Shown here piece after piece: positions 7,360 through 60,814 of a stretch of DNA of 64,000 nt. The DNA lies in contig NC_017527.1 of NCBI RefSeq assembly GCF_000235565.1, forward strand, positions 2,232,001 through 2,296,000. The letters run 5' to 3'. The notes below the pieces were generated by a model, which ran no database searches, was not told the origin of the DNA, and was given only the letters and a program-made list of their open reading frames with translations. The stretch's first letter is position 1. Each line of letters starts with the position of its first letter. A program made the position numbers and the translations under genes. This stretch comes from Methanothrix harundinacea 6Ac (GTDB taxonomy: Archaea > Halobacteriota > Methanosarcinia > Methanotrichales > Methanotrichaceae).

Positions 7360-8511
7360 TCACCGTCCGGCCCCTCCTCCAGAGGGCGCATCACGACATG
7401 ACGATCTGCTGGCCGGCAGGTCTCCCCCCGCCAAGCCCTCTTCTGCAGGCCCCGGGGACGGCCCCTCCCCCCTCTGGAGGATGAGGTTTCTGTAGGGGTA
7501 AGGTATCTCGATCCCCTCCTCATCGAACCTCTTCTTTATAGCCTCTCGGAGGTCGCAGGCGGTGGAGTACGCCACATCTCGGTGAGGCACGTCCACGGTG
7601 AGCCTCATGTTCACGGCGAAATCGGCGAGATCGGTGATCCTAACCGTTATGTCGTGATCCTTCAAGACCAGGGGGTGCCTCCTCGCCACCTCGAGCATGA
7701 TCTCTCTCGCCCGGTCGATGTCGGCACTGTACCCGATGCCCACATCCACCCTCCAGGTGATGACGGGGTCGGTGATCGACCAGTTGATGATCGGCTGGCT
7801 GCCCATGAGGCTGTTAGGGACGAAGATCCTCCGGCCGTCCCAGGTCTTTATGGTGGTGTGCCTCAGGGTCAGATCCTCTATCTGGCCGTACTCGCCCTTG
7901 AAGTCGACGAAGTCCCCGACGCGGAAGGGATGGAATATCGCAAGGAAGATCCCTGATATCAGGTTGGAGAGGGAGTCCTGGGCCGCAAAGCCTATGGCGA
8001 GGCCCGCCACCCCCGCCCCGGCGAGGAGCGTCACGGAGATACTGCTAAGGGTCGGTATCTGGTATATCACCATCAGAAACCCGGCGACGTAGATCGCCGC
8101 CACCATCAGCCTGCTGATCAGGGTCCTGAAGGTCGTCTCGGTCTCGGCGTCGAGGCCCATCTTCCCACCCCCCGTGATCTTGGGGAGGTGGATGTTGATC
8201 GCCCGTCGGACTATATTGGCGAGTAAATATGTAATAATTATTATAATTAATACCTTTAAGATTATTCCCGCTATGGCCACCAGGTCGATCCCCAGGGCAG
8301 AGTCGAGGTAGTCGATGATCGATTCGATCTTAGAATAGGCGCCGTCCCCCGTCAGCTGGGAAGGGACCTCCGAAGATAGCTCCCTCGGCAGATCCGTGGT
8401 GACGTTTGTGAGGTTCGAATCCTGGTCGAGACCGTCCGGGCCCATCCTGGAGGGGACGGTATAATCGTAGAAGATCTCCTCCTCCCCGGATACGATCTCG
8501 TCATCTTCCAT
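7360..8511 (-). CDS. MscS-family small-conductance mechanosensitive channel
   Basis: A 383-residue integral membrane channel that relieves osmotic pressure. A soluble N-terminus (~1-75) is followed by TM helices at about 78-100 and 130-152. The pore-lining TM3 follows with the family's Gly/Ala pattern (GAGVAGLAIGFAAQDSLSN), then FHPFRVGDFVDF and a cytosolic beta domain (IKTWDGRRIFVPNS). The C-terminal ~40 residues are Gly/Pro/Ser-rich and not part of the family core. The ATG at 8511 gives a plausible acidic N-terminus. It is divergent from the NosD-like gene and convergent with engB. The family is certain; ion selectivity cannot be read from the sequence. Confidence 0.92.
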   Translation of the reverse strand: MEDDEIVSGEEEIFYDYTVPSRMGPDGLDQDSNLTNVTTDLPRELSSEVPSQLTGDGAYSKIESIIDYLDSALGIDLVAIAGIILKVLIIIIITYLLANIVRRAINIHLPKITGGGKMGLDAETETTFRTLISRLMVAAIYVAGFLMVIYQIPTLSSISVTLLAGAGVAGLAIGFAAQDSLSNLISGIFLAIFHPFRVGDFVDFKGEYGQIEDLTLRHTTIKTWDGRRIFVPNSLMGSQPIINWSITDPVITWRVDVGIGYSADIDRAREIMLEVARRHPLVLKDHDITVRITDLADFAVNMRLTVDVPHRDVAYSTACDLREAIKKRFDEEGIEIPYPYRNLILQRGEGPSPGPAEEGLAGGDLPASRSSCRDAPSGGGAGR

Positions 8512-8602
8512 GAGACAGAGGAAAAATCGGAAATACTTAACGATTTCGCTGATGGCTCAAGGATCAATCGCCCAGGAAGAAGAGGCCCAAGAAGAAGAGG
8601 CC

Positions 8603-8624
8603 GCGGTCGTAGCACCCCGACCGC
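8603..8624. other. GC-rich inverted repeat between divergent genes
   Basis: GCGGTCG (8603-8609) and CGACCGC (8618-8624) form a 7-bp stem with an 8-nt loop. A direct repeat of AAGAAGAGGCC lies just upstream. It is located between the mscS start and the NosD-like promoter; its function is unknown. Confidence 0.35.
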
Positions 8625-8642
8625 CTCCCCGGGGCTGAAAAG

Positions 8643-8651
8643 GCTTTAAAG
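8643..8651 (+). promoter_or_regulatory. TATA box of the NosD-like gene
   Basis: The sequence CTTTAAAG is centred near 8647, about 30 bp before the ATG at 8677. This spacing predicts a leaderless or nearly leaderless transcript starting at that ATG and supports it as the original start codon. Confidence 0.5.
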
Positions 8652-8676
8652 GAATAAAACCCGACGATAGGCGGGG

Positions 8677-9869
8677 ATGGTCCCATACCAAGAAAGGGAT
8701 TTTACGGCGGCCTGATTCTGTTCTCGGCCCTGCTCCTCATCCTCTCGGGGGGCCCGGCATCGGCGGCGACTTACGTCGTCAGCCCGGATTACGACGACAA
8801 GTTCATCCAGGCCACAATAAACCGCGCCAGCGAAGGGGACAGGATCATCGTCAAGAGTGGCAATTACCGGGAGAACTTAAACGTCACCAAGAAGCTCTCC
8901 CTCATCGGCCTGGATTCGGGGGGAGGAAAGCCGGTGATCGATGGAGGGGGGTTTGGGAGCGCCGTCGTCATCTCCGCCGACGAGGTTCTCTTTGAGGGAT
9001 TCGACGTTACGAACTCGGGGAAGCTCTGGAAGGACGCCGGAATAAAGGCGATCTCAAAGGAGAACACCATCCGGAATAACATGGTCACCGGGAACGAGTA
9101 CGGCATAGTCCTCGACGGCGCAGCCCGAAATAGCGTCCTGAAGAACTTTGTCTGCAAAAACGACGTCGGCATCTCCCTCTATTCCTCGGAGCGGTGCACC
9201 ATCGTGGAGAACGAGGCCTGCAACAACACCTTCGGCGGCATCCTTCTCAGCAGGGCCAACAACAACACCATAAGGAACAACAACGCCAGCCAAAACAGGT
9301 GGGCTGGGATAATCCTCGGCGAGTGCAGCGACAACACCGTCTCCAACAACGTCGTCCGGCAGAACGACAATCAGGGGATATGGCTCCTCCGCTCCTCCGC
9401 CAACACCATCCGAGGAAACAGGGTGAGGTTCAACTACATCTTCGGGGTCCGTCTCCTATACTCCAGCAGAAACGCCATCACCAGCAACACGATAAGAAAT
9501 AACCTCGACGGCGTCAGCCTGGAGAGCTCCAACGGGAACGTCCTCGCCGGAAACAACCTGAGCATCAACGAGTACGGGGTCTACGTCGACAACTCCTTCA
9601 ACAATAGAATTTATATGAACAACCTCATCGGCAACAATAACGACGCCCATTCCTGGAACTCCACCAACTACTGGAACTCCACAGAGCTTTTGAAGTATAT
9701 TTACAACGGCGTTCAGTACAGGAGGTACGTCGGCAACTACTGGAGCGGCTACTTCGGACCCGACCCCTTCGGCGACGGCCTCGTGGACAGGCCTCACGCC
9801 GTATCGGGAAGGGAGAGGGACTACAACCCCCTTAAGAAACCCTCGGAGAATTACACCCTTCGGGGCTGA
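8677..9869 (+). CDS. NosD-like exported parallel beta-helix protein, apparent frameshift at the N-terminus
   Basis: An exported protein of right-handed beta-helix (PbH1/CASH, NosD-like) type. The main frame contains a signal peptide (LILFSALLLILSGGPASA), then repeats such as NTIRNNNASQN, NTVSNNVVRQN and NAITSNTIRNN, and ends with the NosD-like tail NYWSGYFGPDPFGDGLVD. The main frame has no ATG, GTG or TTG between the upstream TAA (8655) and the signal peptide. The ATG at 8677 is in another frame and stops at a TGA after 12 codons. One extra A near 8690 would give MVPYQRKGFYGG joined to the signal peptide. Either a real frameshift, a sequence error, or a non-standard start (ATA at 8685) is present. 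An internal ATG at 8934 would discard the signal peptide. Confidence 0.75.
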
Positions 9870-9931
9870 AGAGATCGTGAAGGAAAAATGAGGGAGGATG
9901 AGGGAGGGCCCCAAGCCCGGTCCTCCTCCCC

Positions 9932-11170
9932 TTAAGAGAACATCCTCATCGACTCGTCGACCCGCGGGAGCATCTCCTCGCCGAGGACCTTGTCGACGGC
10001 CCTCTTGAAGTCCTCCGGGGTGACGGCGGTTCCCCGCCGCCTTATGGCCATCATCCCCGCCTCGACGGCGATGGACTTGAGGTCGGCACCGCTCGCCCCC
10101 TCCGTCTCCTTGGCTATCACCCGCAGGTCCACCTCGGGGCTCATCTTCATCTTCGCAGTGTGGATCGAAAGGATGGCCAGGCGGCCGTCGAAGTTGGGCA
10201 TGGGGATCTCGATGATCCGATCGAACCTCCCCGGCCGGAGGAGGGCGGGGTCCAGGATGTCTATCCTGTTGGTGGCGGCGATGACCTTGACGTCCCCCCT
10301 CGCCCTGAAGCCGTCCAGCTCCGCCAACAGCTGCATCATCGTCCGGTTCACCTCGGCGGACCCGGTGGTCCCATCGTGGGTCCTGATGGATCCGACGGAG
10401 TCTATCTCGTCGATGAAGACGATCGCTGGGGCCTTGTCCCTCGCCATCTGGAATATGTCCCTGACGAGCTGGGCTCCCTCGCCTATGAACTTGTGGACGA
10501 GCTCGCTCCCCGACATGTGGATGAAGGTGGCCCGGGAGTGGTGGGCCACCGCCTTGGCTATGAGGGTCTTGCCGGTCCCGGGGGGCCCGAAGAGGAGGAC
10601 CCCCTTCGGCGGCTCCACCCCGATCTCGGCAAAGAGCTCCGGCTGGGTGAGGGGAAGCTCGACGGTCTCGCTCACCTCCCGGATCTGGTCCTCCAGGCCC
10701 CCCACCTGATCGTAAGATACGGTGGGAGCCTCTATCAGCTCCATCGTCTTGGCCCTGACGTCCACGGACTTGTCCATGACCCTCACTATCGTCAGGGAGT
10801 TGTTTATCGCGACCCTGGTGTTCGGCTCCAGAGCCTCCATCATCTCCGGGGAGGTGGTGGTGATGAACTCCTGGTTGTTACCGTGCTGTCGGAGGAGGAC
10901 GTAGTCCTCCCCCATCTCCACCACCGTCGCCAGGAAGAGGGGCATCCTCCGGAGGAGGGCGTTCTCTTTCTTCAGCCTCTCCTCTTCCCGCATGTACTTC
11001 TTGTTGGATATGAGGGTCTCTACGAGCTTGGCTCTGGTGTCCTCTTTCTCCATCCTGAGGGTCTCGATCTCCTCACTCAGGCGCTTGTTCTCGTTCTCCA
11101 GAGCTGTGATCCTCTTTAGATGTAATTCCTGAATCGACTCCTGATCTGGCGTAATTGTTGACTCAGTCAT
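9932..11170 (-). CDS. pan: Proteasome-activating nucleotidase (PAN)
   Basis: A 412-residue AAA ATPase that unfolds substrates and feeds them into the archaeal 20S proteasome. The N-terminal coiled coil (~10-70) is followed by an OB domain and the AAA module with Walker A GPPGTGKT, Walker B IVFIDEIDS, the SRH (ATNRIDILDPALLRPGRFD) and an aromatic-hydrophobic pore loop (FIHMSGSELVHKF). The C-terminus ends RVDESMRMFS; an HbYX-like ending (hydrophobic-Tyr-X) is not present, with M-F-S in its place, which is notable for 20S docking. The ATG at 11170 (MTESTITPD) was preferred over one 13 codons upstream because a TATA box lies 30 bp before it, implying an almost leaderless message. It is convergent with the NosD-like gene. 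Confidence 0.93.
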   Translation of the reverse strand: MTESTITPDQESIQELHLKRITALENENKRLSEEIETLRMEKEDTRAKLVETLISNKKYMREEERLKKENALLRRMPLFLATVVEMGEDYVLLRQHGNNQEFITTTSPEMMEALEPNTRVAINNSLTIVRVMDKSVDVRAKTMELIEAPTVSYDQVGGLEDQIREVSETVELPLTQPELFAEIGVEPPKGVLLFGPPGTGKTLIAKAVAHHSRATFIHMSGSELVHKFIGEGAQLVRDIFQMARDKAPAIVFIDEIDSVGSIRTHDGTTGSAEVNRTMMQLLAELDGFRARGDVKVIAATNRIDILDPALLRPGRFDRIIEIPMPNFDGRLAILSIHTAKMKMSPEVDLRVIAKETEGASGADLKSIAVEAGMMAIRRRGTAVTPEDFKRAVDKVLGEEMLPRVDESMRMFS

Positions 11171-11190
11171 GTAAATAGTCGAATGCTCAT

Positions 11191-11220
11191 TCAGGAATAT
11201 AAATTGCACCCTCAGGAATA
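11191..11220 (-). promoter_or_regulatory. pan promoter: TATA box bracketed by direct repeats
   Basis: On the minus strand the TATA box ATTTATAT (plus-strand 11197-11204) lies ~30 bp before the pan start. Two perfect 9-bp copies of TCAGGAATA (plus strand 11191-11199 and 11212-11220) flank and overlap it, 21 bp apart, i.e. two helical turns. This looks like a tandem operator. Confidence 0.55.
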
Positions 11221-11431
11221 GGGCCGATATTATAAATGACCAACCCCGGCCGGCGGCGGTCTTCGCCGGATAATTTACGCCGCGGGAGAGGGCGCCGCCG
11301 TAATTTTCGGAAGAGGATCACCGACGATTTGCCAGGTAAACCACGTCAATAAGCGTACTTCATCATCGAAGCTCCGGGGCAACCGATCGGAATATCAAGC
11401 TGGAGGTTCTGTAATATATTCGGGTGTTTTG

Positions 11432-14355: not shown

Positions 14356-17300
14356 TCAGGCGTTCTCCAGCCGGAGGAAGTGCAACCTTCCCGATGATTC
14401 GCCAGCTACGATGGTGACGCCATCGGGTCCGATAGTGCAACAACGGATTGAACCGTCTGCTGTGAAGGTAGCGACTATTTCACCGGTTTCCAGGTCCCAT
14501 ACCTTGAGGGTCTGATCGAAGGATGACGATACCGCTTTTCGACCGTCCGGGGTTACCGCCACCGCTCTGACCCAATAAGAATGGCCTTTCAGCGTCCTCA
14601 GCTCTTCGCCCTTCTCCAGGTCCCATACCTTAAGGGTAAGATCACCGGATGCCGATACCGCTCTCAGACCGTCCGGGGTCGCCGCCACCGCGTTGACCCA
14701 ATTGGAATGGCCTTTCAGCGTCCTCAGCTCTTCGCCCCTCTCCAGATCCCATACCTTGAGGGTCCGATCCCTGGATGCCGATACCGCTCTCCGACCGTCC
14801 GGGGTCACCGCCACCGCTCTGACCGAATTGGAATGACCTTTCAGCGTCCTCAGTTCTTCGTACCTCTCCAGATCCCATACCTTGAGGGTCTGATCGAAGG
14901 ATGCCGATACCGCTCTCAGACCGTCCGGAGTTACCGCCACAGCACTGACCGAATCGGAATGGCCTTTCAGCGTCCTCAGTTCTTCGTACCTCTCCAGGTC
15001 CCATACCTTGAGGGTATGATCATCGGATGCCGATACCGCTCTCCGACCGTCCGGGGTTACCGCCACAGCACTGACCCAATTGGAATGGCCTTTCAGCGTC
15101 CTCAGCTCTTCGTACCTCTCCAGGTCCCATACCTTGAGGGTCTTATCCCTGGATGCTGATACCACTCTCCGACCGTCGGGAGTCAACGCTACCGCGTTGA
15201 CCCAACAGTAATGACCTTTCAGAGTCAAAAGCATCTCGCCTCTCTCAAGGTCCCATACCTTGAGGGTTTGATCATCGGATGCTGAAACCGCTCTCAGACC
15301 ATCCGGGGTCACAGCCACCTCGTTGACCCAACTGGAATGACCTTTCAGGGTCAAAAGCATCTCGCCTCTCTCCAGGTCCCATACCTTGAGGGTTTGATCA
15401 TCGGATGCCGATACCGCTCTCCGACCGTCAGGGGTCAACGTTACCGCGTTGACCCAACTGGAATGACCTTTCAGAGTCAAAAGCATCTCACCACTCTTCA
15501 GGTCCCATACCTTGAGGGTTTGATCACCGGATGCTGAAACCGCTCTCAGACCGTTCGGTGTTACCTTCACCGCGTTGACCCAACAGGAATGGCCTATCAG
15601 GGTCCTCAGCTCTTCGCCCCTCTCAAGGTCCCATACCTTAAGGGTCAGATCACCGGATGCCGATACCGCCCTCAGACCGTCAGGGGTCACCGCCACCGCA
15701 CTGACCGAATTGGAATGGCCTTTCAGGGTCCTCAGCTCTTCGCCCCTCTCAAGGTCCCATACCTTGAGGGTCCGATCCCTGGATGCCGATACCGCTCTCC
15801 GACCGTCAGGGGTCACCGCCACCGCACTGACCGAATTGGAATGGCCTTCCAGGGTCCTCAACTCTTCGCCCCTCACCAGGTCCCAGACCCTAAGGGTCGA
15901 ATCATCGGATGCCGATACCGCCCTCAGACCGTCCGGGGTCACCGCCACCGCTCTGACCGAATTGGAATGGCCTATCAAGGTCCTCAGCTCTTCGCCCCTC
16001 TCCAGGTCCCATACCTTAAGGGTCCGATCACCGGATGCCGATACCGCTCTCCGACCGTCTGGGGTCACTGCCACCGCCCTAACCGAATCGGAGTGGCCTT
16101 TCAGTATTCGGAGCAGGGGTCCGCCCGGCGGCGTCAGGTTTGGGGTCATTGGGCGTATCCAGGATTCGTGTACACTCTCTCCAATGTGATCGAGGAGTGC
16201 CTGTATCGAGCGAGATGGCAGAGCCATCAATCGGCCCAGGATCTGACTTGCGAGCTGAGCTTTATCGGTGGCAAGAACGTGAGCCGAGAGTTGGAAAGCA
16301 TCACGCACCAAAAACGCGTCTGAATCTTCCGGAAGAAAATCGTAATCCGCAACGAGAGACGAAACATCTGTGGTTTCTAGCTTCGCTCTTATCCAATTAA
16401 AATCAAGGAGAATATTGCGCAGTTCATCTTTTCGCCCAGCTTCGATCAAATGGCGGGCCAAATGCTGAAAGATATAGCCGTCATCTGGACCGGTGTGCCA
16501 GCCGTCAAGACATTTCCGACGGTAAGCTTCCAGTAGGCGGTTGTGTAGCTCGGTGACGTCTTCAACCTGTTTTCTCACATAGTCGAATTGGAGGTCGTGA
16601 AGGCTCAAGCGTCCTTCATCAGATCGTCTCGCCAGCGACCGAGCGACAAATAGGTCGACCGCATCTTGGGATTCGTCCTCGTCAAGACCTTCCGGCGCCC
16701 AGAAGGTCTGCAAAACAGCTTCTGGGATAGGCGTATCTTCCGGGAATACTGCAAAATCAAAATAGCGAGATTGAAGATCAGGCTTCAGATTTTCTACACT
16801 TACCTGAATCGTCTTCAATAAGTCGTGATAGGGATAATGTGGAAAGTCACGTTCGATTTTATCGAGATCAGTACTTTGGAGCTTATGCAACACATTTTTC
16901 CAGCGATTAAGAGGTTTTCCTTGCAGCATGGCGCCGATTATGGCTAGCGCCAAAGGCAATCTGCCACATTCTTGCACAATCTCATTAGCCTCTCGGGGCA
17001 GAGAATCGGCATCTATACCAGCCCAATCCGCAAGCAGCTTCAGGGCCTTAGGCACCTCCAGAAGGTCCAACGAGTATTCCGAGCCACCCAAATTTGTGAT
17101 TATGTCTGCGTTTCTAGTGGTGATAAGCATCCTGCAGTTTGGCCCCAACGAGTCAAAGGCACCCGCGTCTCTGGCTTTCCATACATCGTCCAAGATTAGC
17201 AGGCAGACCTTGTCAGCTAGCAGCTCCAGCAGCTTTTCTTTGCCGTCATTTAAATTCTCGAAGACGCTTTCATCGCCCAAAATTCTGGCCAGCTTTGACT

Positions 17301-18054
17301 GAATTTGAAGCAGATCTGCCTCTCGGATATCTCGACCGATGCTCAGCCAAAATATCCCATCCGGAAAGGCCAGGCGGACTCCATCATCCCGCGCCACCAC
17401 CGCAGCCAGCACTGACTTTCCTATCCCGCCCATCCCCTGAACGCCGACCTTCTTAGAGACCCCAGTGATCCCGGTCGCCTTCTTTTCTCCGGAAAAAACT
17501 AGCTCTTTTATCCCCTTCAGCTCCTCATCGCGGGGGAGGAAGTTCGGCGGCAGCTCCGGGACGTTGACGAGCCTGCCTACCTTGCCGGGAAAGCGTTCGG
17601 GCTTGGGGACGGAATGGCCTTGGAGTCCAGGAAAGATGGGTGCTTCAGGTGGCCGTGTTCGTTCACGCTTCACTCCAGCGAGTAGGCTGTCCATAGCGAT
17701 CTTTTCATCGAGCCCGACGAGGTCGATATAGACGATGGGGCCCAGCAGTCCTCCGGGCTTGCATTCCCTGACGCGGACCGGAAGAAGTGAGCCCTTTTCG
17801 CCCTTCGGGTCCTTCTTGAATGCAGCTGCCCATTCTGGCTGGGTGTAAAAGGCCTCCAGATAATTCGGCGAGAGGACTGCGATCGTCCGCTCAGTCTCCC
17901 TGGAGGCTTTGTCCATCTCCAGCACGAAGTTGGAGCCTGGCCTAAAGTCCCAGACCTGGATCACGGTCGAATAGCCCGTCTCCTCCAGGTGCCAGGCGAT
18001 CCACTCCGCCCATTCTTTGTCGGCCTTGGTGTAGCTGATGAAGAAGTCTTTCAC
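14356..18054 (-). CDS. TIR-NB-ARC-WD40 STAND protein (NLR-like)
   Basis: A 1232-residue STAND ATPase with the architecture of an immune sensor. TIR domain, residues ~1-130: it opens DFFISYTKADKEWAEWIAWHLEE, and Glu74 in SPNYLEAFYTQPEW sits at the NADase catalytic position. NB-ARC, ~200-480: P-loop GMGGIGKS (207-214), Walker B LLILDDVW (285-292), RMLITTRN, GLPL-like CGRLPLAL (363-370), MHD-like LHDLQFDY. Helical linker, ~500-640. Then 14 WD40 blades to the end, enough for two seven-bladed propellers. In known relatives, ligand binding at the WD40 end drives oligomerisation and TIR NAD+ cleavage or signalling; that role here is inferred. The start is GTG (18054), ~29 bp after a TATA-like TTTTAAG. 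A DUF488 gene lies upstream on the same strand. The NB-ARC part is less GC-rich than neighbouring genes, suggesting transfer. Confidence 0.93.
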   Translation of the reverse strand: MKDFFISYTKADKEWAEWIAWHLEETGYSTVIQVWDFRPGSNFVLEMDKASRETERTIAVLSPNYLEAFYTQPEWAAAFKKDPKGEKGSLLPVRVRECKPGGLLGPIVYIDLVGLDEKIAMDSLLAGVKRERTRPPEAPIFPGLQGHSVPKPERFPGKVGRLVNVPELPPNFLPRDEELKGIKELVFSGEKKATGITGVSKKVGVQGMGGIGKSVLAAVVARDDGVRLAFPDGIFWLSIGRDIREADLLQIQSKLARILGDESVFENLNDGKEKLLELLADKVCLLILDDVWKARDAGAFDSLGPNCRMLITTRNADIITNLGGSEYSLDLLEVPKALKLLADWAGIDADSLPREANEIVQECGRLPLALAIIGAMLQGKPLNRWKNVLHKLQSTDLDKIERDFPHYPYHDLLKTIQVSVENLKPDLQSRYFDFAVFPEDTPIPEAVLQTFWAPEGLDEDESQDAVDLFVARSLARRSDEGRLSLHDLQFDYVRKQVEDVTELHNRLLEAYRRKCLDGWHTGPDDGYIFQHLARHLIEAGRKDELRNILLDFNWIRAKLETTDVSSLVADYDFLPEDSDAFLVRDAFQLSAHVLATDKAQLASQILGRLMALPSRSIQALLDHIGESVHESWIRPMTPNLTPPGGPLLRILKGHSDSVRAVAVTPDGRRAVSASGDRTLKVWDLERGEELRTLIGHSNSVRAVAVTPDGLRAVSASDDSTLRVWDLVRGEELRTLEGHSNSVSAVAVTPDGRRAVSASRDRTLKVWDLERGEELRTLKGHSNSVSAVAVTPDGLRAVSASGDLTLKVWDLERGEELRTLIGHSCWVNAVKVTPNGLRAVSASGDQTLKVWDLKSGEMLLTLKGHSSWVNAVTLTPDGRRAVSASDDQTLKVWDLERGEMLLTLKGHSSWVNEVAVTPDGLRAVSASDDQTLKVWDLERGEMLLTLKGHYCWVNAVALTPDGRRVVSASRDKTLKVWDLERYEELRTLKGHSNWVSAVAVTPDGRRAVSASDDHTLKVWDLERYEELRTLKGHSDSVSAVAVTPDGLRAVSASFDQTLKVWDLERYEELRTLKGHSNSVRAVAVTPDGRRAVSASRDRTLKVWDLERGEELRTLKGHSNWVNAVAATPDGLRAVSASGDLTLKVWDLEKGEELRTLKGHSYWVRAVAVTPDGRKAVSSSFDQTLKVWDLETGEIVATFTADGSIRCCTIGPDGVTIVAGESSGRLHFLRLENA
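14375..16115 (-). repeat. WD40 array: 13 near-identical 126-bp repeats plus one degenerate
   Basis: The 42-codon unit (GHS-xx-V-x-AVAVTPDG-xx-AVSAS-x-D-x-TLKVWDLERGEELRTL) recurs 13 times, followed by one decayed blade at the C-terminus. Copies are highly similar in DNA as well as protein, so the array is young or kept uniform by recombination. Confidence 0.9.
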
Positions 18055-26669: not shown

Positions 26670-26762
26670 TGCGCCGACCGGGATTCGAACCCGGGTTTTG
26701 GGCTTGCTCCGCGATCCCTGCCGCTTGGAAGGCCCAAGTCATAACCACTAGACCATCGGCGC
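26670..26762 (-). tRNA. tRNA-Gly (UCC) with a 21-nt intron
   Basis: The acceptor stem GCGCCGA/TCGGCGC with discriminator A and no encoded CCA, the T arm CCGGG-TTCGAAT-CCCGG and the D arm fold normally. The anticodon stem TGGGC pairs with GCCCA only after removing a 21-nt insert (plus-strand 26705-26725) directly 3' of A37, the canonical archaeal 37/38 intron site. The anticodon is UCC. The splicing enzyme would recognise a bulge-helix-bulge there. The gene lies between the mevalonate operon promoter and carS. Confidence 0.9.
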
Positions 26763-57017: not shown

Positions 57018-57074
57018 ACTGTTTGTTTGCCTGTCGCATTGTCGGTGGGTCCGACAGTCGCTTTTCACCTGCCC

Positions 57075-60000
57075 TCAAATCTGAGGCGTTCTGGCGCTCG
57101 GCGGGATAAACGCATCTCGCAATCTCCAAACGGCTTCCATCGTCAGGGTTTCGCCTTCGAAGATGATCTGACGACTCTCTTTGTCCTCCCGATTCTTGAG
57201 GTATTGCGTAACATTCATCCAGCGGATTGTTCCTCCGTTGGTTCGTTCGTCAGTCTGACGGATAACGAGATAGACGTCGGCGGGCTGACTGACCCAATAT
57301 TGCAGGTGGCGGTCTTTTTTGACGTCGAAGACTTCCCGGCCGTCTCTCCGGCGCGTCCGCAGGTAGGAATTGCCGCTCTTGAGCTGGACGTAGATCTTCT
57401 TCCCGCTCGGCTGGCCGTCGTTGTCCCTGAATTCCACCTCGCCATCGATACCGTAATCGAACATGCTCACCGGGCGGAACACCTGGTTCGCCTCACCGCA
57501 AATCGCCATCATGTGACCGATCAGGATCTGCTCCAGCGCCTGCGTATCGAGCTCCCGCGTGGCAATCTCTTCCATGTCCAGGATCTTTCTCGCCACCGGG
57601 TCGCTCTTCAGTCGCTGTTCTATGTGATCGATCAACAGCACCCGCTCGTCGCAGTTTTGGCAGGTGATGAAATTCTTCCCCGAATCCAAGCGATTTCGAA
57701 CTATGGTGAGATTCGTAACGGGCGTGCCGCAATGGACGCATACATACCTCCGGTCCCGCCTTACGTCGCAGCCGTACTTGGCCAGGTGACGATGCACGTA
57801 CTCGATGAAGATCACCTTCAGCTCGTCCGGCGTCGCAACGTCGAAGAAGAGGCTGATCGTCGCCTCGCCTTCGCCCTGCAGGTTGTCGATCTTTAGGCCC
57901 AGCAGGTGCCCACGGCTGGAGGAGAACTCAGCAGCGTTCCGCCACAGCTCACGATGCTCGAACTCCTGACTGTACCAGAGCCGCACCACTAGCGTCGTCC
58001 AGATCGTCTGCCACTCGCCGCCAAAGGTATAGGAGACGAATACGTCGGGCTGCCACGGGAGGTTTTTCTCGCGGCGGTACTGCGAGGGGAAGACGAGCTG
58101 CCTGCCCTGCTCCGTATCTTCGGCGATGCAAAGAGAGTGATCGAGGAATGTCTGCACCATCGCCCGCAGCAGCAGCTCTTCGTCTGGCCGCGCGAGCCGG
58201 TCGACGCCCGTGAAATCGAAGTCCGGCCGGTAGATGTCGTCCTCCAGGACGCAGCCGATCTCGTCGGTGTGGGCGCGGGCGGGGCGGATGATCGCTCCGG
58301 CGTAGCCGTTCATAAGCTCAGGCTGCAGTAGCACCAGATCGCCGAACTTCAGTGGCAGGGCCAGACCGTGGTTGGCCAAGAGCGTCACCGCCGTGCGGAC
58401 GTCGGACTCGTCGAACTGCTCTCCCGGCAAGGTATTCTCCAGCCGCTGCGCCAGCTCAGCGAAGCGGAGCAAGCGGATGTCGGCCGAATCGCGCATCTTC
58501 AGTAGAGCGTTCTTCAGCTCGGCCAATAGCAGCGGTGTGGCAGTCCACGGCAGTTTTTCCCAGGGAATGCTGTCAGCGATGAGCCGCTTCAGCTTCGACG
58601 GCTGGCCTCCGTTCGCCTCGTCCGAACAGTTCTCGCCGGTCTTGGCGCTGGTGGCCAGCCATTTGGCGAAGCCATGCTCCTGGGCAAACCGTTTGATCTT
58701 GGCGTCGCTGAGCTTCATATATCCGACGTCAACTTGCGAGAAGATTAGCAGCCGGGCCGCTTCGCATTTCGATTTGTGGTTGCTTGCCGTGTCGAGAGCC
58801 TTGAGCCAGTCGCCCGCCTCGGCGAAGGGATCGTCCTTCTGCGGATTGATCAGCAGCAGGGCCAGCGCGGTCTCGTCGAGGAAGAGCCGGTGGATCAGTC
58901 GGTAGTCCTCCTGCCCGGCCAAGTCCCAGAGCAACGCCTCACTGTCCATCGTTGCGTCGGGCGGCAGCGGCAGCTCCAGCGGCCAGACGTTCATGCCGTG
59001 GGTGCGGTCTTTCACCACGTACTCGTCTTCAATCAACCGATATGCCAGCGAGGTCTTGCCGACAGCACCTTCGCCCAGCAAGACCACCTTGGCGTTGACG
59101 TAGCGGCGTGTGGGTTCGGCAGACGGGGCGGCGCGTACACCGGTGAGGCGGTAGATGTAGATCACGCCCCCAAATGTCCCGACTACGACCCGCGAACCAT
59201 CGGGGCTGAAGGCGACGGACGTCGGAGTTGGCCATCCTTCGGACGCTAGCACCTGCAAGCATGCCCCCGACATCCAATCCCAGAGCCGAACCGTACCGTC
59301 AATAAACCCCGTGGAGGCGATCAAGCTGCCGTCGGGAGAGATGGAGACCGAATGCACATCACTCTGATGGCCTTCCAGCGTTCCAACGCAGGTTCCGTCT
59401 TCCAGGTCCCAGACCTTGACGGTCATGTCCTCGGAACCCGAAACGGCAAACTGGCCGTCCAGCGTGATCTGGACGGATCGCACAATTCCCGAATGGCCCT
59501 TCAGTGTCGCCTGGCATTCGCCCGTTTCGAAGTTCCAGAGCCTGACCGTTCTGTCGAAAGAGCCGGAAACAAAGCGATTATGAGTTTCGTCCAACGCAAC
59601 TGAAACGGCTGGCCCAGTGTGACCTTGGAACTTTCGGATAGACTTGCCTGTCCCTCGATCCAATAGTGTTATTACCGAATTACTGCTACATACCAACAGT
59701 TGCTCCCTGTTTGACAATTCCTTGACACAATGAATTTCACCAAGATTAGAATCAAGCGACGAAAGCAGCTTTCTTTCCCTGATATCCCAGGTTCGGATTT
59801 TTCCATCGTTTGCAGACGATAATACGTAATCGGTTTGACAAGCTATGAACCGCACAGCTTTTGAATGTCCTGTCAGCGTCGCCAGGCACTCGCCGGTCTC
59901 CAGGTCCCAGATCTTGACAGTCTTGTCACCTGAGCCGGAAGCCGCCCATTTCCCATCTGGGCTGATGGCCACGCTATAGACCCAACCCTTGTGACCCGTG

Positions 60001-60524
60001 AGCTTGCGTTCCGACACAACCAGCGGCTTTGCCCGCTCCGGTGGCTTATCCGGCTTGAGCTTCCGCTTCGCCGGTTTCTTCTTCGGCTCGGGCCGTGGAG
60101 CGGGCGCCGCCGCTTCCGCCTCCTCCCTGCACGCAGCCAGCAGCTCGTCGAACGCGGCTGGCGTCTCCTGGCGGAAGTCCACGTACTTGTAGCGGCGCAG
60201 TGTGTCGGGCAGTGTGCACTCAGCCAGCAGCAGCGGGACGAAGCGGCGGCCGGAATTGCTGGGATCGCGGAAAAGGACCGTGCTGCGTTCGAGCGTCACC
60301 CACTCCGAGCCCAGCGCCGCGGGCGAGAGGCAGAGCACCTGCACCCGGGCCGCCTCAAGGCCGCCCTCGATGGCCAGGTAGATGTCGTCGCCCGGCTTGA
60401 TGACCCAGTCATCGAACCACACCCGAAGCCCGGCTTCCTTCAACCGCTCGGCCAGCTTGCGCACCTGGGGCTTATCCCGCGAGTTATGGCTCAGAAAAAC
60501 ATCATAGGCGAAGTTAGCTGGCAT
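57075..60524 (-). CDS. TIR-WD40-ROC/COR-zinc ribbon-DUF4365 multidomain protein
   Basis: A 1149-residue protein. TIR, ~5-130: YDVFLSHNSRDKP, VWFDDWVIKPGD, and Glu79 in SEWVTLE at the NADase position. Basic Pro/Lys linker, 140-168. Seven WD40 blades, ~174-463. ROC GTPase: P-loop GEGAVGKT (484-491), G3 DLAGQE (534-539), G4 SQVD in place of NKxD, G5 SAK. A COR-like winged-helix part follows, containing PLKFGDLVLLQPELMNGYAG. A zinc ribbon (C929/C932, C955/C958) comes next. The C-terminal DUF4365, ~1000-1140, has Asp1027, Glu1029 and YVQLKSG spaced like a PD-(D/E)xK nuclease site. It is probably a sensor coupling a GTPase switch to NADase and/or nuclease effectors; this role is inferred. Monocistronic, between metabolic genes; the WD40 part has locally lower GC. 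Confidence 0.9.
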   Translation of the reverse strand: MPANFAYDVFLSHNSRDKPQVRKLAERLKEAGLRVWFDDWVIKPGDDIYLAIEGGLEAARVQVLCLSPAALGSEWVTLERSTVLFRDPSNSGRRFVPLLLAECTLPDTLRRYKYVDFRQETPAAFDELLAACREEAEAAAPAPRPEPKKKPAKRKLKPDKPPERAKPLVVSERKLTGHKGWVYSVAISPDGKWAASGSGDKTVKIWDLETGECLATLTGHSKAVRFIACQTDYVLSSANDGKIRTWDIRERKLLSSLDSNLGEIHCVKELSNREQLLVCSSNSVITLLDRGTGKSIRKFQGHTGPAVSVALDETHNRFVSGSFDRTVRLWNFETGECQATLKGHSGIVRSVQITLDGQFAVSGSEDMTVKVWDLEDGTCVGTLEGHQSDVHSVSISPDGSLIASTGFIDGTVRLWDWMSGACLQVLASEGWPTPTSVAFSPDGSRVVVGTFGGVIYIYRLTGVRAAPSAEPTRRYVNAKVVLLGEGAVGKTSLAYRLIEDEYVVKDRTHGMNVWPLELPLPPDATMDSEALLWDLAGQEDYRLIHRLFLDETALALLLINPQKDDPFAEAGDWLKALDTASNHKSKCEAARLLIFSQVDVGYMKLSDAKIKRFAQEHGFAKWLATSAKTGENCSDEANGGQPSKLKRLIADSIPWEKLPWTATPLLLAELKNALLKMRDSADIRLLRFAELAQRLENTLPGEQFDESDVRTAVTLLANHGLALPLKFGDLVLLQPELMNGYAGAIIRPARAHTDEIGCVLEDDIYRPDFDFTGVDRLARPDEELLLRAMVQTFLDHSLCIAEDTEQGRQLVFPSQYRREKNLPWQPDVFVSYTFGGEWQTIWTTLVVRLWYSQEFEHRELWRNAAEFSSSRGHLLGLKIDNLQGEGEATISLFFDVATPDELKVIFIEYVHRHLAKYGCDVRRDRRYVCVHCGTPVTNLTIVRNRLDSGKNFITCQNCDERVLLIDHIEQRLKSDPVARKILDMEEIATRELDTQALEQILIGHMMAICGEANQVFRPVSMFDYGIDGEVEFRDNDGQPSGKKIYVQLKSGNSYLRTRRRDGREVFDVKKDRHLQYWVSQPADVYLVIRQTDERTNGGTIRWMNVTQYLKNREDKESRQIIFEGETLTMEAVWRLRDAFIPPSARTPQI

Positions 60525-60814
60525 GACCTATCCCCAATGTGTCGGCCCTTGCATGATTGCGGTCGCCAGCGTCAGCAGGCCAGCGACTAGGCTCACCAGC
60601 GGCGATGGAGCGGAGTGGAACTGTCATCGTAGAGCCCCTTGTCATTATCGGTATCTTTGCCCTCTTCCATCGATTTACTAGATCGCTTATTTAAGTTTCT
60701 CCAATTATGTCGGGATCGGGTCGTCATCGATGCGCTGATGCTCTAACGATGTCCTCCACCGTCAGCTCACATTCACCGGAAATCCTGATATAAACCGCCG
60801 GCAAAAATCCGTCC
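60525..60814. other. Intergenic region between the TIR-ROC gene and the methyltransferase gene
   Basis: No coding frame with normal composition is visible. It carries a moderately AT-rich segment near 60640-60715 that may hold promoters for both divergent genes; no clear repeat was found. Confidence 0.4.

Follow-up and report, generated by a model that had tools for sequence, protein, structure and literature searches.

A five-part protein of Methanothrix harundinacea resembling a one-gene immune receptor with a Roco switch and two candidate enzymatic ends

The window analysed here, a stretch of 64,000 nucleotides from the archaeon Methanothrix harundinacea 6Ac (contig NC_017527.1, positions 2,232,001 to 2,296,000 of the forward strand), encodes a protein of 1149 residues in which a TIR domain, a WD40 propeller, a Roc GTPase with a COR segment, a zinc ribbon and a DUF4365 domain are joined in one chain (Table 1). 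An initial annotation, made from the letters of the window, had described this five-part fusion and considered it a possible immune sensor with two outputs or a receptor with a nuclease-like domain recruited for the recognition of nucleic acids. The gene is a single frame of 1149 codons in the 2.56 Mb contig of a two-contig genome of 2.57 Mb. A scan of 84,980 species genomes detected 265 relatives; the 80 best of them (79 loci), mostly from metagenome-assembled genomes (MAGs) and leaning to close relatives, were used and, together with the window and six loci from other searches, make up a set of 86 loci. All five parts stand in the same order in one open frame in 38 of these 86 loci including the window, distributed over archaea and many bacterial phyla, with the ribbon cysteines verified in 36 of the 38 frames (not in L064 and L103). 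The annotation had named an absence of the fusion from any related genome as the sign of an artefact; what was found are 37 further five-part frames in other genomes, which together with the one open frame in the window rule out an assembly or gene-calling artefact for all practical purposes.

Pfam places TIR_2 at residues 9-129 (5.5e-29), WD40 repeats from about residue 171 to 460, Ras at 479-634 (6e-17), Roc at 479-583 (8e-16) and DUF4365 at 1014-1137 (2e-20). The annotated WD40 propeller was thus recovered, while its seven blades are inferred only from its length of 295 residues, about 7 x 42. The Pfam matches identify Roc, and not an NB-ARC or NACHT ATPase, as the switch, and they display no leucine-rich repeats (LRR) before Roc, the N-terminal stretch consisting of TIR, a 35-residue linker and WD40. 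Equally, no APAZ domain is among the 25 of 57 Pfam matches listed for the protein, nor is there space for one, and the genes on either side, a deaminase and a methyltransferase, do not supply a short Argonaute.

Table 1. Features of the five-part gene and its interval; positions are those of the window.
Feature	Position	Strand	Observation
Whole gene, TIR-WD40-Roc-COR-zinc ribbon-DUF4365, 1149 aa	57075..60524	-	One open frame; 38 five-part open frames including the window
TIR domain, residues 5-135	60120..60512	-	Pfam TIR_2 5.5e-29; PDB relatives include NAD(+) hydrolase AbTIR 3.3e-12
Glu79, putative NADase catalytic Glu	60288..60290	-	E in 42/42 N-terminal TIRs; aligned with Glu of AbTIR
Linker, residues 136-170, Lys/Pro-rich	60015..60119	-	Least conserved part, mean identity 0.28, 18 close members
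WD40 propeller, residues 171-465, proposed sensor	59130..60014	-	Most variable blade positions 5, 7, 4, 23, 3 (G of GH = 1)
Roc GTPase, residues 475-655	58560..59102	-	G1 GEGAVGKTS, G3 DLAGQ, G4 SQVD, G5 TSAK
COR-A/COR-B, residues 656-925	57750..58559	-	Recognised by fold, without Pfam match
Zinc ribbon and start of following helix, residues 926-986	57567..57749	-	C929, C932, C955, C958 invariant in 58/58 aligned sequences
DUF4365 / DREN-type PD-(D/E)xK domain, residues 1000-1140	57105..57527	-	Pfam 2e-20; model matches SPARDA DREN 9qcc
Putative catalytic set D1027 (57444-57446), Q1047 (57384-57386), K1049 (57378-57380)	57378..57446	-	Homology to DREN D41/Q60/K62
Deaminase-methyltransferase interval holding the five-part gene	57018..60814	.	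115-116 bp long in G003, G004

The COR segment has no Pfam match even at E 5 and a fold search was therefore needed. A structure model of Roc-COR built with 54 relatives (predicted local distance difference test, pLDDT, 87.7) has its best Foldseek match in the RocCOR of C. tepidum (3dpu; E 5.6e-18, 467 columns with gaps, TM 0.49, root-mean-square deviation (rmsd) 8.3 Å); it also aligns with Roco2 of M. barkeri (4wnr; Z 23.3, 305 residues, 3.6 Å, model residues 1-347) and with LRRK2 (8fo9; Z 21.4, 423 residues, 6.2 Å, model residues 3-466), and its Roc part aligns with Rab GTPases at a Z of about 21. Because the model matches the folds of 3dpu, LRRK2 and Roco2, the segment that follows Roc can be assigned to COR, as the annotation had suspected; the large rmsd values are compatible with a common fold in a different domain arrangement of the modelled protein. 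G1 and G3 of Roc are conserved in the relatives and G5 mostly so. The sequence SQVD at G4 had been seen as a hint that nucleotide specificity may differ, an expectation that found little support in an alignment of 55 sequences including the window, in which Lys is found in 0/55 and Asp in 55/55 at G4: since the pattern is common to all of them and the guanine-contacting Asp is kept, SQVD by itself gives little reason to assume a changed nucleotide. G4 of a paralogue in the same genome (L011) reads TKLD, that is, with Lys. The annotated CxxC...CxxC zinc ribbon is borne out by its four invariant cysteines (Table 1).

Both ends of the protein look like enzymes under constraint, because catalytic residues are conserved and the ratios of non-synonymous to synonymous divergence (dN/dS) are low. 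The Glu79 position, seen in the annotation as that of an NADase, holds a Glu in 42/42 N-terminal TIRs, a count that includes L084, assigned by hand, and it aligns with a Glu in bacterial TIRs of known structure, among them one that bears the name NAD(+) hydrolase (AbTIR); of all 49 TIRs, two lack this Glu, both of them SEFIR-like and placed in the C-terminal slot. A model of the final 235 residues, built with 57 relatives (pLDDT 88.1), shows the PD-(D/E)xK-like fold that had been proposed, with the DREN domains of SPARDA as the top match (9qcc, E 2e-8; Z 13.8, 149 residues, rmsd 5.5 Å), followed by Hjc resolvases and I-Ssp6803I, and a sequence profile search agrees on DREN (9qbq, 4.8e-12). Conservation in DUF4365, counted over 66 C-termini of which two are broken (L052, L065) and with gaps set aside, amounts to 64/64 for D1027, 63/64 for E1029, 63/65 for K1049 and 58/65 for Q1047. 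The catalytic residues of DREN are D41, Q60 and K62 (PMC12205087), and Q62A/K64A is the inactive form of another DREN member (PMC10810196; papers with a PMC number are cited here from parts of their text). The annotated Asp1027, Glu1029 and Lys1049 are present as described, and by homology to DREN the likely catalytic set of DUF4365 is D1027, Q1047 and K1049. In nine hand-picked pairs a simple counting method gave dN/dS values of 0.06-0.36 for TIR and 0.04-0.22 for DUF4365, indicative of purifying selection on both. As the fusion is real, the C-terminus has a nuclease fold, the catalytic residues are conserved and both ends are under purifying selection, two outputs are favoured over a nuclease-like domain used for recognition only.

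The C-terminal end is not the same throughout the family. Sorting by BLASTP clusters and a TIR profile, with Pfam run on 22 of them, assigned 83 C-termini (L101, L121 and L122 stayed unsorted) to DUF4365 (67), TIR (7), cyclase (5) and metallophosphatase (4). An N-terminal TIR is located in one frame with the core in 42 loci, 41 of which have DUF4365 and the remaining one of which is cut by the contig end; six further N-terminal TIRs are found in broken frames. On the tree, the N-terminal TIR occurs only alongside DUF4365, and 0/16 members with other effectors carry one. As judged from these sequences, the Roc-COR-ribbon core is a chassis and the effector in the place of DUF4365 is exchangeable.

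A number of family members can be listed beside this distribution. The paralogue in the same genome (L011:7875-11402, reverse strand) combines WD40-Roc-COR-ribbon with a C-terminal calcineurin-like phosphoesterase, a type also found in G008, G044 and a Calothrix. A Chlorobium MAG harbours two adjacent full-length copies which are mutually 74% identical (L060:3549-7040 and 7794-11309, forward strand). Double-switch fusions are present in a Calothrix (L125), with Roco core, phosphoesterase and NACHT, and in a member of the Pyrinomonadaceae (L092), with Roco core, DUF4365 and an AAA/NB-ARC-like ATPase. In G024, a genome of the same taxonomic family as the window, L050:3524-6076 (forward strand) encodes a Roco protein of the classic form, LRR-Roc-COR-TIR. 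In G036, a lone DUF4365 frame of 148 amino acids (L043:11032-11475, reverse strand), 82% identical to that of the window and with Thr at the position of the catalytic Lys, looks like a decayed remnant, while another remnant in G037 (L049:5465-6693, forward strand) preserves a TIR piece and a DUF4365 piece of a close relative, separated by about 600 bp and lacking the central part.

The WD40 propeller diverges far more than the domains around it. Mean pairwise identity among 18 close members is 0.69 for TIR, 0.76 for Roc, 0.76 for COR, 0.66 for the ribbon, 0.74 for DUF4365 and 0.49 for WD40 (the sets of 35 and 18 members behind the domain identities were hand-picked, and the 35 exclude six members with N-terminal TIR that have a broken frame or a missing or double propeller). 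In three Chlorobi members the DNA identity lies at 0.82-0.98, mostly above 0.9, over TIR and Roc-COR and mostly at 0.54-0.69 across most of the propeller, recovering in the last blades; in L054 the identity of the zinc ribbon falls too. Outside the propeller such orthologues mostly share 85-97% of their DNA letters, as compared to about 60% across the greater part of it. Synonymous divergence (dS) in the Chlorobi pairs is saturated or at least 2.6 in WD40 as compared to 0.2-0.6 in TIR, Roc, COR and DUF4365. Permuted blades do not explain why WD40 identity is low, as it was not restored in four pairs when pieces were compared in any register. Furthermore, the closest relative of a member in the propeller is often not its closest relative in Roc-COR. 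This pattern suits a propeller that is exchanged as a cassette, which, where the WD40 dS is saturated, is indistinguishable from very fast divergence.

The variation within the blades is equally uneven, with peaks at a few positions (Table 1). In the fungal HNWD proteins, positive selection has been found at codons 7, 9, 25 and 27, which lie at the top of the propeller and flank the constrained codons 8 and 26 (PMC1805685). These codons are positions 5, 7, 23 and 25 in the present numbering (8 and 26 being 6 and 24) if an offset of two is applied, as the spacing of the selected codons and the place of the constrained ones suggest. A pair of Nostoc members differs at 18/20 of the sites selected in HNWD as compared to 21/180 other sites, with all four positions affected, and their TIRs have 4 differences in 140 residues. 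In the clade of the window, represented by 15 hand-picked members, the four positions have an average entropy of 2.10 bits versus 1.14 overall (p 0.0012 in a permutation that treats repeat positions as exchangeable). Both comparisons cover the 5/7 blades with a usable GH anchor. The pattern was first noticed in the window clade; the Nostoc pair was tested with six positions and then with the four positions of the literature. Near-identical repeats, which the window protein lacks, are present in two Nostoc members, L095 and L098.

Apart from the five-part gene, the window encodes a protein of 1232 amino acids (14356-18054, reverse strand) with TIR, NB-ARC, an APAF1-like helical domain and 13 WD40 repeats that closely resemble one another, a prokaryotic HNWD-like receptor by its domain content, with a GC content at third codon positions (GC3) of 0.61 and repeats that vary most at positions 25, 4, 23 and 7. 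Elsewhere in the same genome, L012:6832-10029 (reverse strand) encodes an NB-ARC-WD40 protein with near-identical repeats and, by eye, an apparent N-terminal membrane segment. At 26670-26762 (reverse strand) of the window, a tRNA-like gene whose anticodon has four bases is reported by ARAGORN.

The occurrence of the family is, as far as sequences can tell, the pattern of a mobile accessory gene that has moved between archaea and bacteria. Among the best 80 of the 265 relatives, the core is 84% identical to that of a Methanothrix MAG and 83% identical to those of a Chlorobiaceae MAG and a Thiohalocapsa MAG, and the window falls into a supported clade of six with the Methanothrix MAG, three Chlorobi and Thiohalocapsa (SH-aLRT 99) on a tree of the quick kind without a mixture model, in which long branches were flagged and the rows L065, L101, L122, L121, L116, L093 and L092 dropped; the hand-chosen alignments A2 and A3 took 57/59 and 54/70 candidate loci. 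Toward the copy in the Chlorobiaceae MAG, dS is 0.64 in TIR, 0.73 in COR, 1.03 in Roc and 1.14 in DUF4365, with WD40 and the ribbon saturated. GC3 of the five-part gene is 0.755 as compared to 0.883-0.948 in six other window genes. The flanking genes are 115 and 116 bp apart in the congeners G003 and G004, an empty site, versus 3800 bp here. Because three other members of the genus, G002, G007 and G008, have other material in the same interval (772, 1146 and 3622 bp), the stretch between deaminase and methyltransferase may be an insertion hot spot. At E<=1e-30 the core was matched in 5/392 sampled genomes of the phylum, the own genome included; in the first survey 21/99 genomes had a match at E 1e-3, several by the G domain only. 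The C-terminal 680 residues have no match in 7/8 congeners, the remaining one, G008, having only a relative of another type.

Taken together, we consider with moderate confidence that the five-part protein is a one-gene, NLR-like intracellular immune receptor whose switch is of the Roco kind rather than a STAND ATPase and which has two enzymatic outputs. Its layout of effector, switch and repeat sensor matches, by analogy, the logic of NLR receptors. The propeller would bind a foreign, probably viral, protein, and this binding would shift the Roc-COR module to another nucleotide or oligomer state, whereby both ends of several protomers might be clustered. Because Roco proteins undergo a nucleotide-dependent monomer-dimer change (PMC6337361) and DREN, inactive alone, is active as a tetramer, with tetramerisation taking place on a filament (PMC12205087), clustering of both ends would be a natural link between sensor and outputs. 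The clustered N-terminal TIR might then degrade or convert NAD+ and the clustered C-terminal DREN-type nuclease cleave nucleic acids, upon which the infected cell would die or stop growth; two unrelated outputs would make such a response harder to block. A wider and more tentative proposal, to which we give somewhat less than an even chance, sees a mobile prokaryotic receptor class in which a Roco GTPase, and not a STAND ATPase, couples two different killing enzymes per chain to a hypervariable propeller that is swapped or diversified as a cassette. This class would be the counterpart of fungal HET-E-type receptors, with the same propeller positions varying, with transfer between archaea and bacteria and with re-tooling of the C-terminal weapon.

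A number of observations weigh against this reading. Q1047 of the likely catalytic set is replaced in 7/65 DUF4365 members, and up to 8 DUF4365 members have no N-terminal TIR, so that two effectors are not obligatory; the lack of TIR is secure in four of them (L076, L078, L081 and L086, with ample upstream DNA and an unbroken frame) and less so in L113, with a broken frame upstream, and in L089, L114 and L115, with fewer than 330 bases of upstream DNA. Three of the four HNWD positions are raised in the window clade and position 25 is not, and a receptor that recognises cellular partners might likewise develop fast WD40 divergence with variation on the top face. The genetic context equally gives no support. 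No phage match to the five-part protein was seen at 1e-5, and on plasmids only two distant matches (E 1e-20) were seen, which cover 74-76% of the query and do not reach DUF4365. In the window the five-part gene stands between a deaminase gene and a methyltransferase gene in metabolic surroundings, and of the 92 Pfam families found among the 103 nearest neighbours of the family the 25 listed are mostly metabolic. At 1e-10, 51 PADLOC families had matches among these neighbours, and each of the 25 listed matches a single one. With mostly metabolic neighbours and PADLOC matches of single members, a defence-island context is unsupported. A conserved partner gene is lacking in the flanks examined as well; the largest shared neighbour cluster (12 loci) is the family itself, as broken-frame pieces or extra copies, and the other clusters listed comprise at most three loci. 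The system, if it is one at all, is a single gene.

Whether both ends kill can be argued. Considerably less probable than two outputs, yet deserving serious weight, is a receptor with one output, in which DUF4365 kills and TIR is an oligomerisation or adaptor domain, or in which TIR kills and DUF4365 is a nucleic-acid co-sensor. TIR domains can act as scaffolds, and the TIR-less members, as well as a C-terminal slot that is the one varying among effectors, would fit; this is countered by Glu79 in 42/42 N-terminal TIRs, aligned with a Glu of an NAD+ hydrolase TIR, by D (64/64) and K (63/65) of DUF4365 and by the purifying selection on both ends. Many prokaryotic TIRs produce cyclic ADP-ribose messengers, as in Thoeris, and the ThsB models of PADLOC match the window TIR weakly (best 4.3e-7), which is in line with a TIR that makes such a messenger for another effector and with DUF4365 as a second arm. 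We regard this as improbable, given that no conserved neighbour offers itself as a responder in the flanks examined.

On the side of the sensor, the propeller might recognise proteins of other strains and trigger cell death in allorecognition or kin discrimination, a role like that of HET-E and HET-D in Podospora. Blade variation at the positions selected in HNWD proteins and divergence of the propeller apart from its flanks would agree with such a role, and Methanothrix forms filaments. However, many lineages with the family are not known for cell fusion, and even for the fungal proteins the dynamism of the HNWD genes has been said to make no obvious sense if their role was only incompatibility (PMC2873952), so that we attribute a low probability to this role. 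Nor do we think it likely, and indeed assign it a very small chance, that the protein is a regulator of development or metabolism built on a Roco scaffold instead of a conflict protein; Roco proteins are regulatory elsewhere, the same genome has the phosphoesterase paralogue and cyclase versions exist, but the sporadic occurrence within phylum and genus, the close copies across domains of life and the hypervariable sensor speak against such a regulator. The receptor with two enzymatic outputs therefore stays our favoured reading.

If this reading is true, sensor, switch and two outputs are united in one chain of a single-gene system, with natural swaps of sensors and effectors available for comparison. 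Furthermore, the role of prokaryotic Roco proteins, relatives of the disease protein LRRK2, would become testable, as would the question whether prokaryotic propeller sensors diversify like fungal immune receptors.

Comparison with described systems defines what is novel. The statement of the initial annotation that no described system has this exact order holds in so far as no open-access paper that describes the order TIR-WD40-Roc-COR-ribbon-DUF4365 was found, as judged by title or the start of the abstract, and the excerpts of a survey of prokaryotic WD40 proteins mention neither TIR nor Roc (PMC5587647). It has to be qualified by what is already in print, Roco-centred conflict proteins with swappable effectors (PMC8195603) and double effectors on APAZ proteins (PMC10810196). 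As far as searches of the open-access literature went, new are the WD40-Roc-COR-ribbon chassis with swappable ends and the pairing of TIR and DREN on this chassis, seen in 38 open frames; within the same scope, so are a propeller that is hypervariable and the presence of close copies both in archaea and in bacteria.

The LRR-Roc-COR (AP-GTPase) conflict proteins of Kaur et al. 2021 are predicted to act against invaders, and their C-terminal domains are of at least 24 kinds, one of which is TIR (PMC8195603). They share with the window protein the central Roc-COR switch, the repeat sensor N-terminal to it and the exchangeable C-terminal domain; their sensor is made of LRR, whereas the window protein has a WD40 propeller, a ribbon between COR and effector and an extra N-terminal TIR. 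DUF4365 is not named in the text, figure apart, of the section of that paper on LRR-Roc-COR proteins. With other Roco proteins (C. tepidum Roco 3dpu, M. barkeri Roco2 4wnr and LRRK2) the fold of Roc, COR-A and COR-B is common, and the window protein differs by a COR unseen by Pfam, a G4 without Lys in the 55 sequences and other flanking domains.

The nuclease fold with its D/Q/K set is that of the DREN/DUF4365-APAZ proteins of SPARDA (9qcc, 9jt2, 9qbq; PMC12205087, PMC10810196), in which the nuclease is joined to APAZ and a short Argonaute loaded with its guide drives it, whereas here a Roco receptor carries it. A TIR and a nuclease on one defence protein are equally known from double-effector short prokaryotic Argonaute (pAgo) systems, where one APAZ protein has REase and TIR (PMC10810196), which, unlike the window protein, have an Argonaute trigger and, in the parts of the source used, neither WD40 nor GTPase. 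The fungal HNWD proteins HET-E, HET-D and HET-R, finally, resemble the window protein in a TIR-related effector, an NTPase switch and a WD40 sensor with variable blade codons 7, 9, 25 and 27 (PMC1805685, PMC2873952, PMC12222747); as described in the excerpts of these papers, they have a NACHT ATPase, no nuclease end and near-identical repeats, whereas the window protein combines Roc-COR and a nuclease end with repeats that are not near-identical, unlike those of the Nostoc members L095 and L098.

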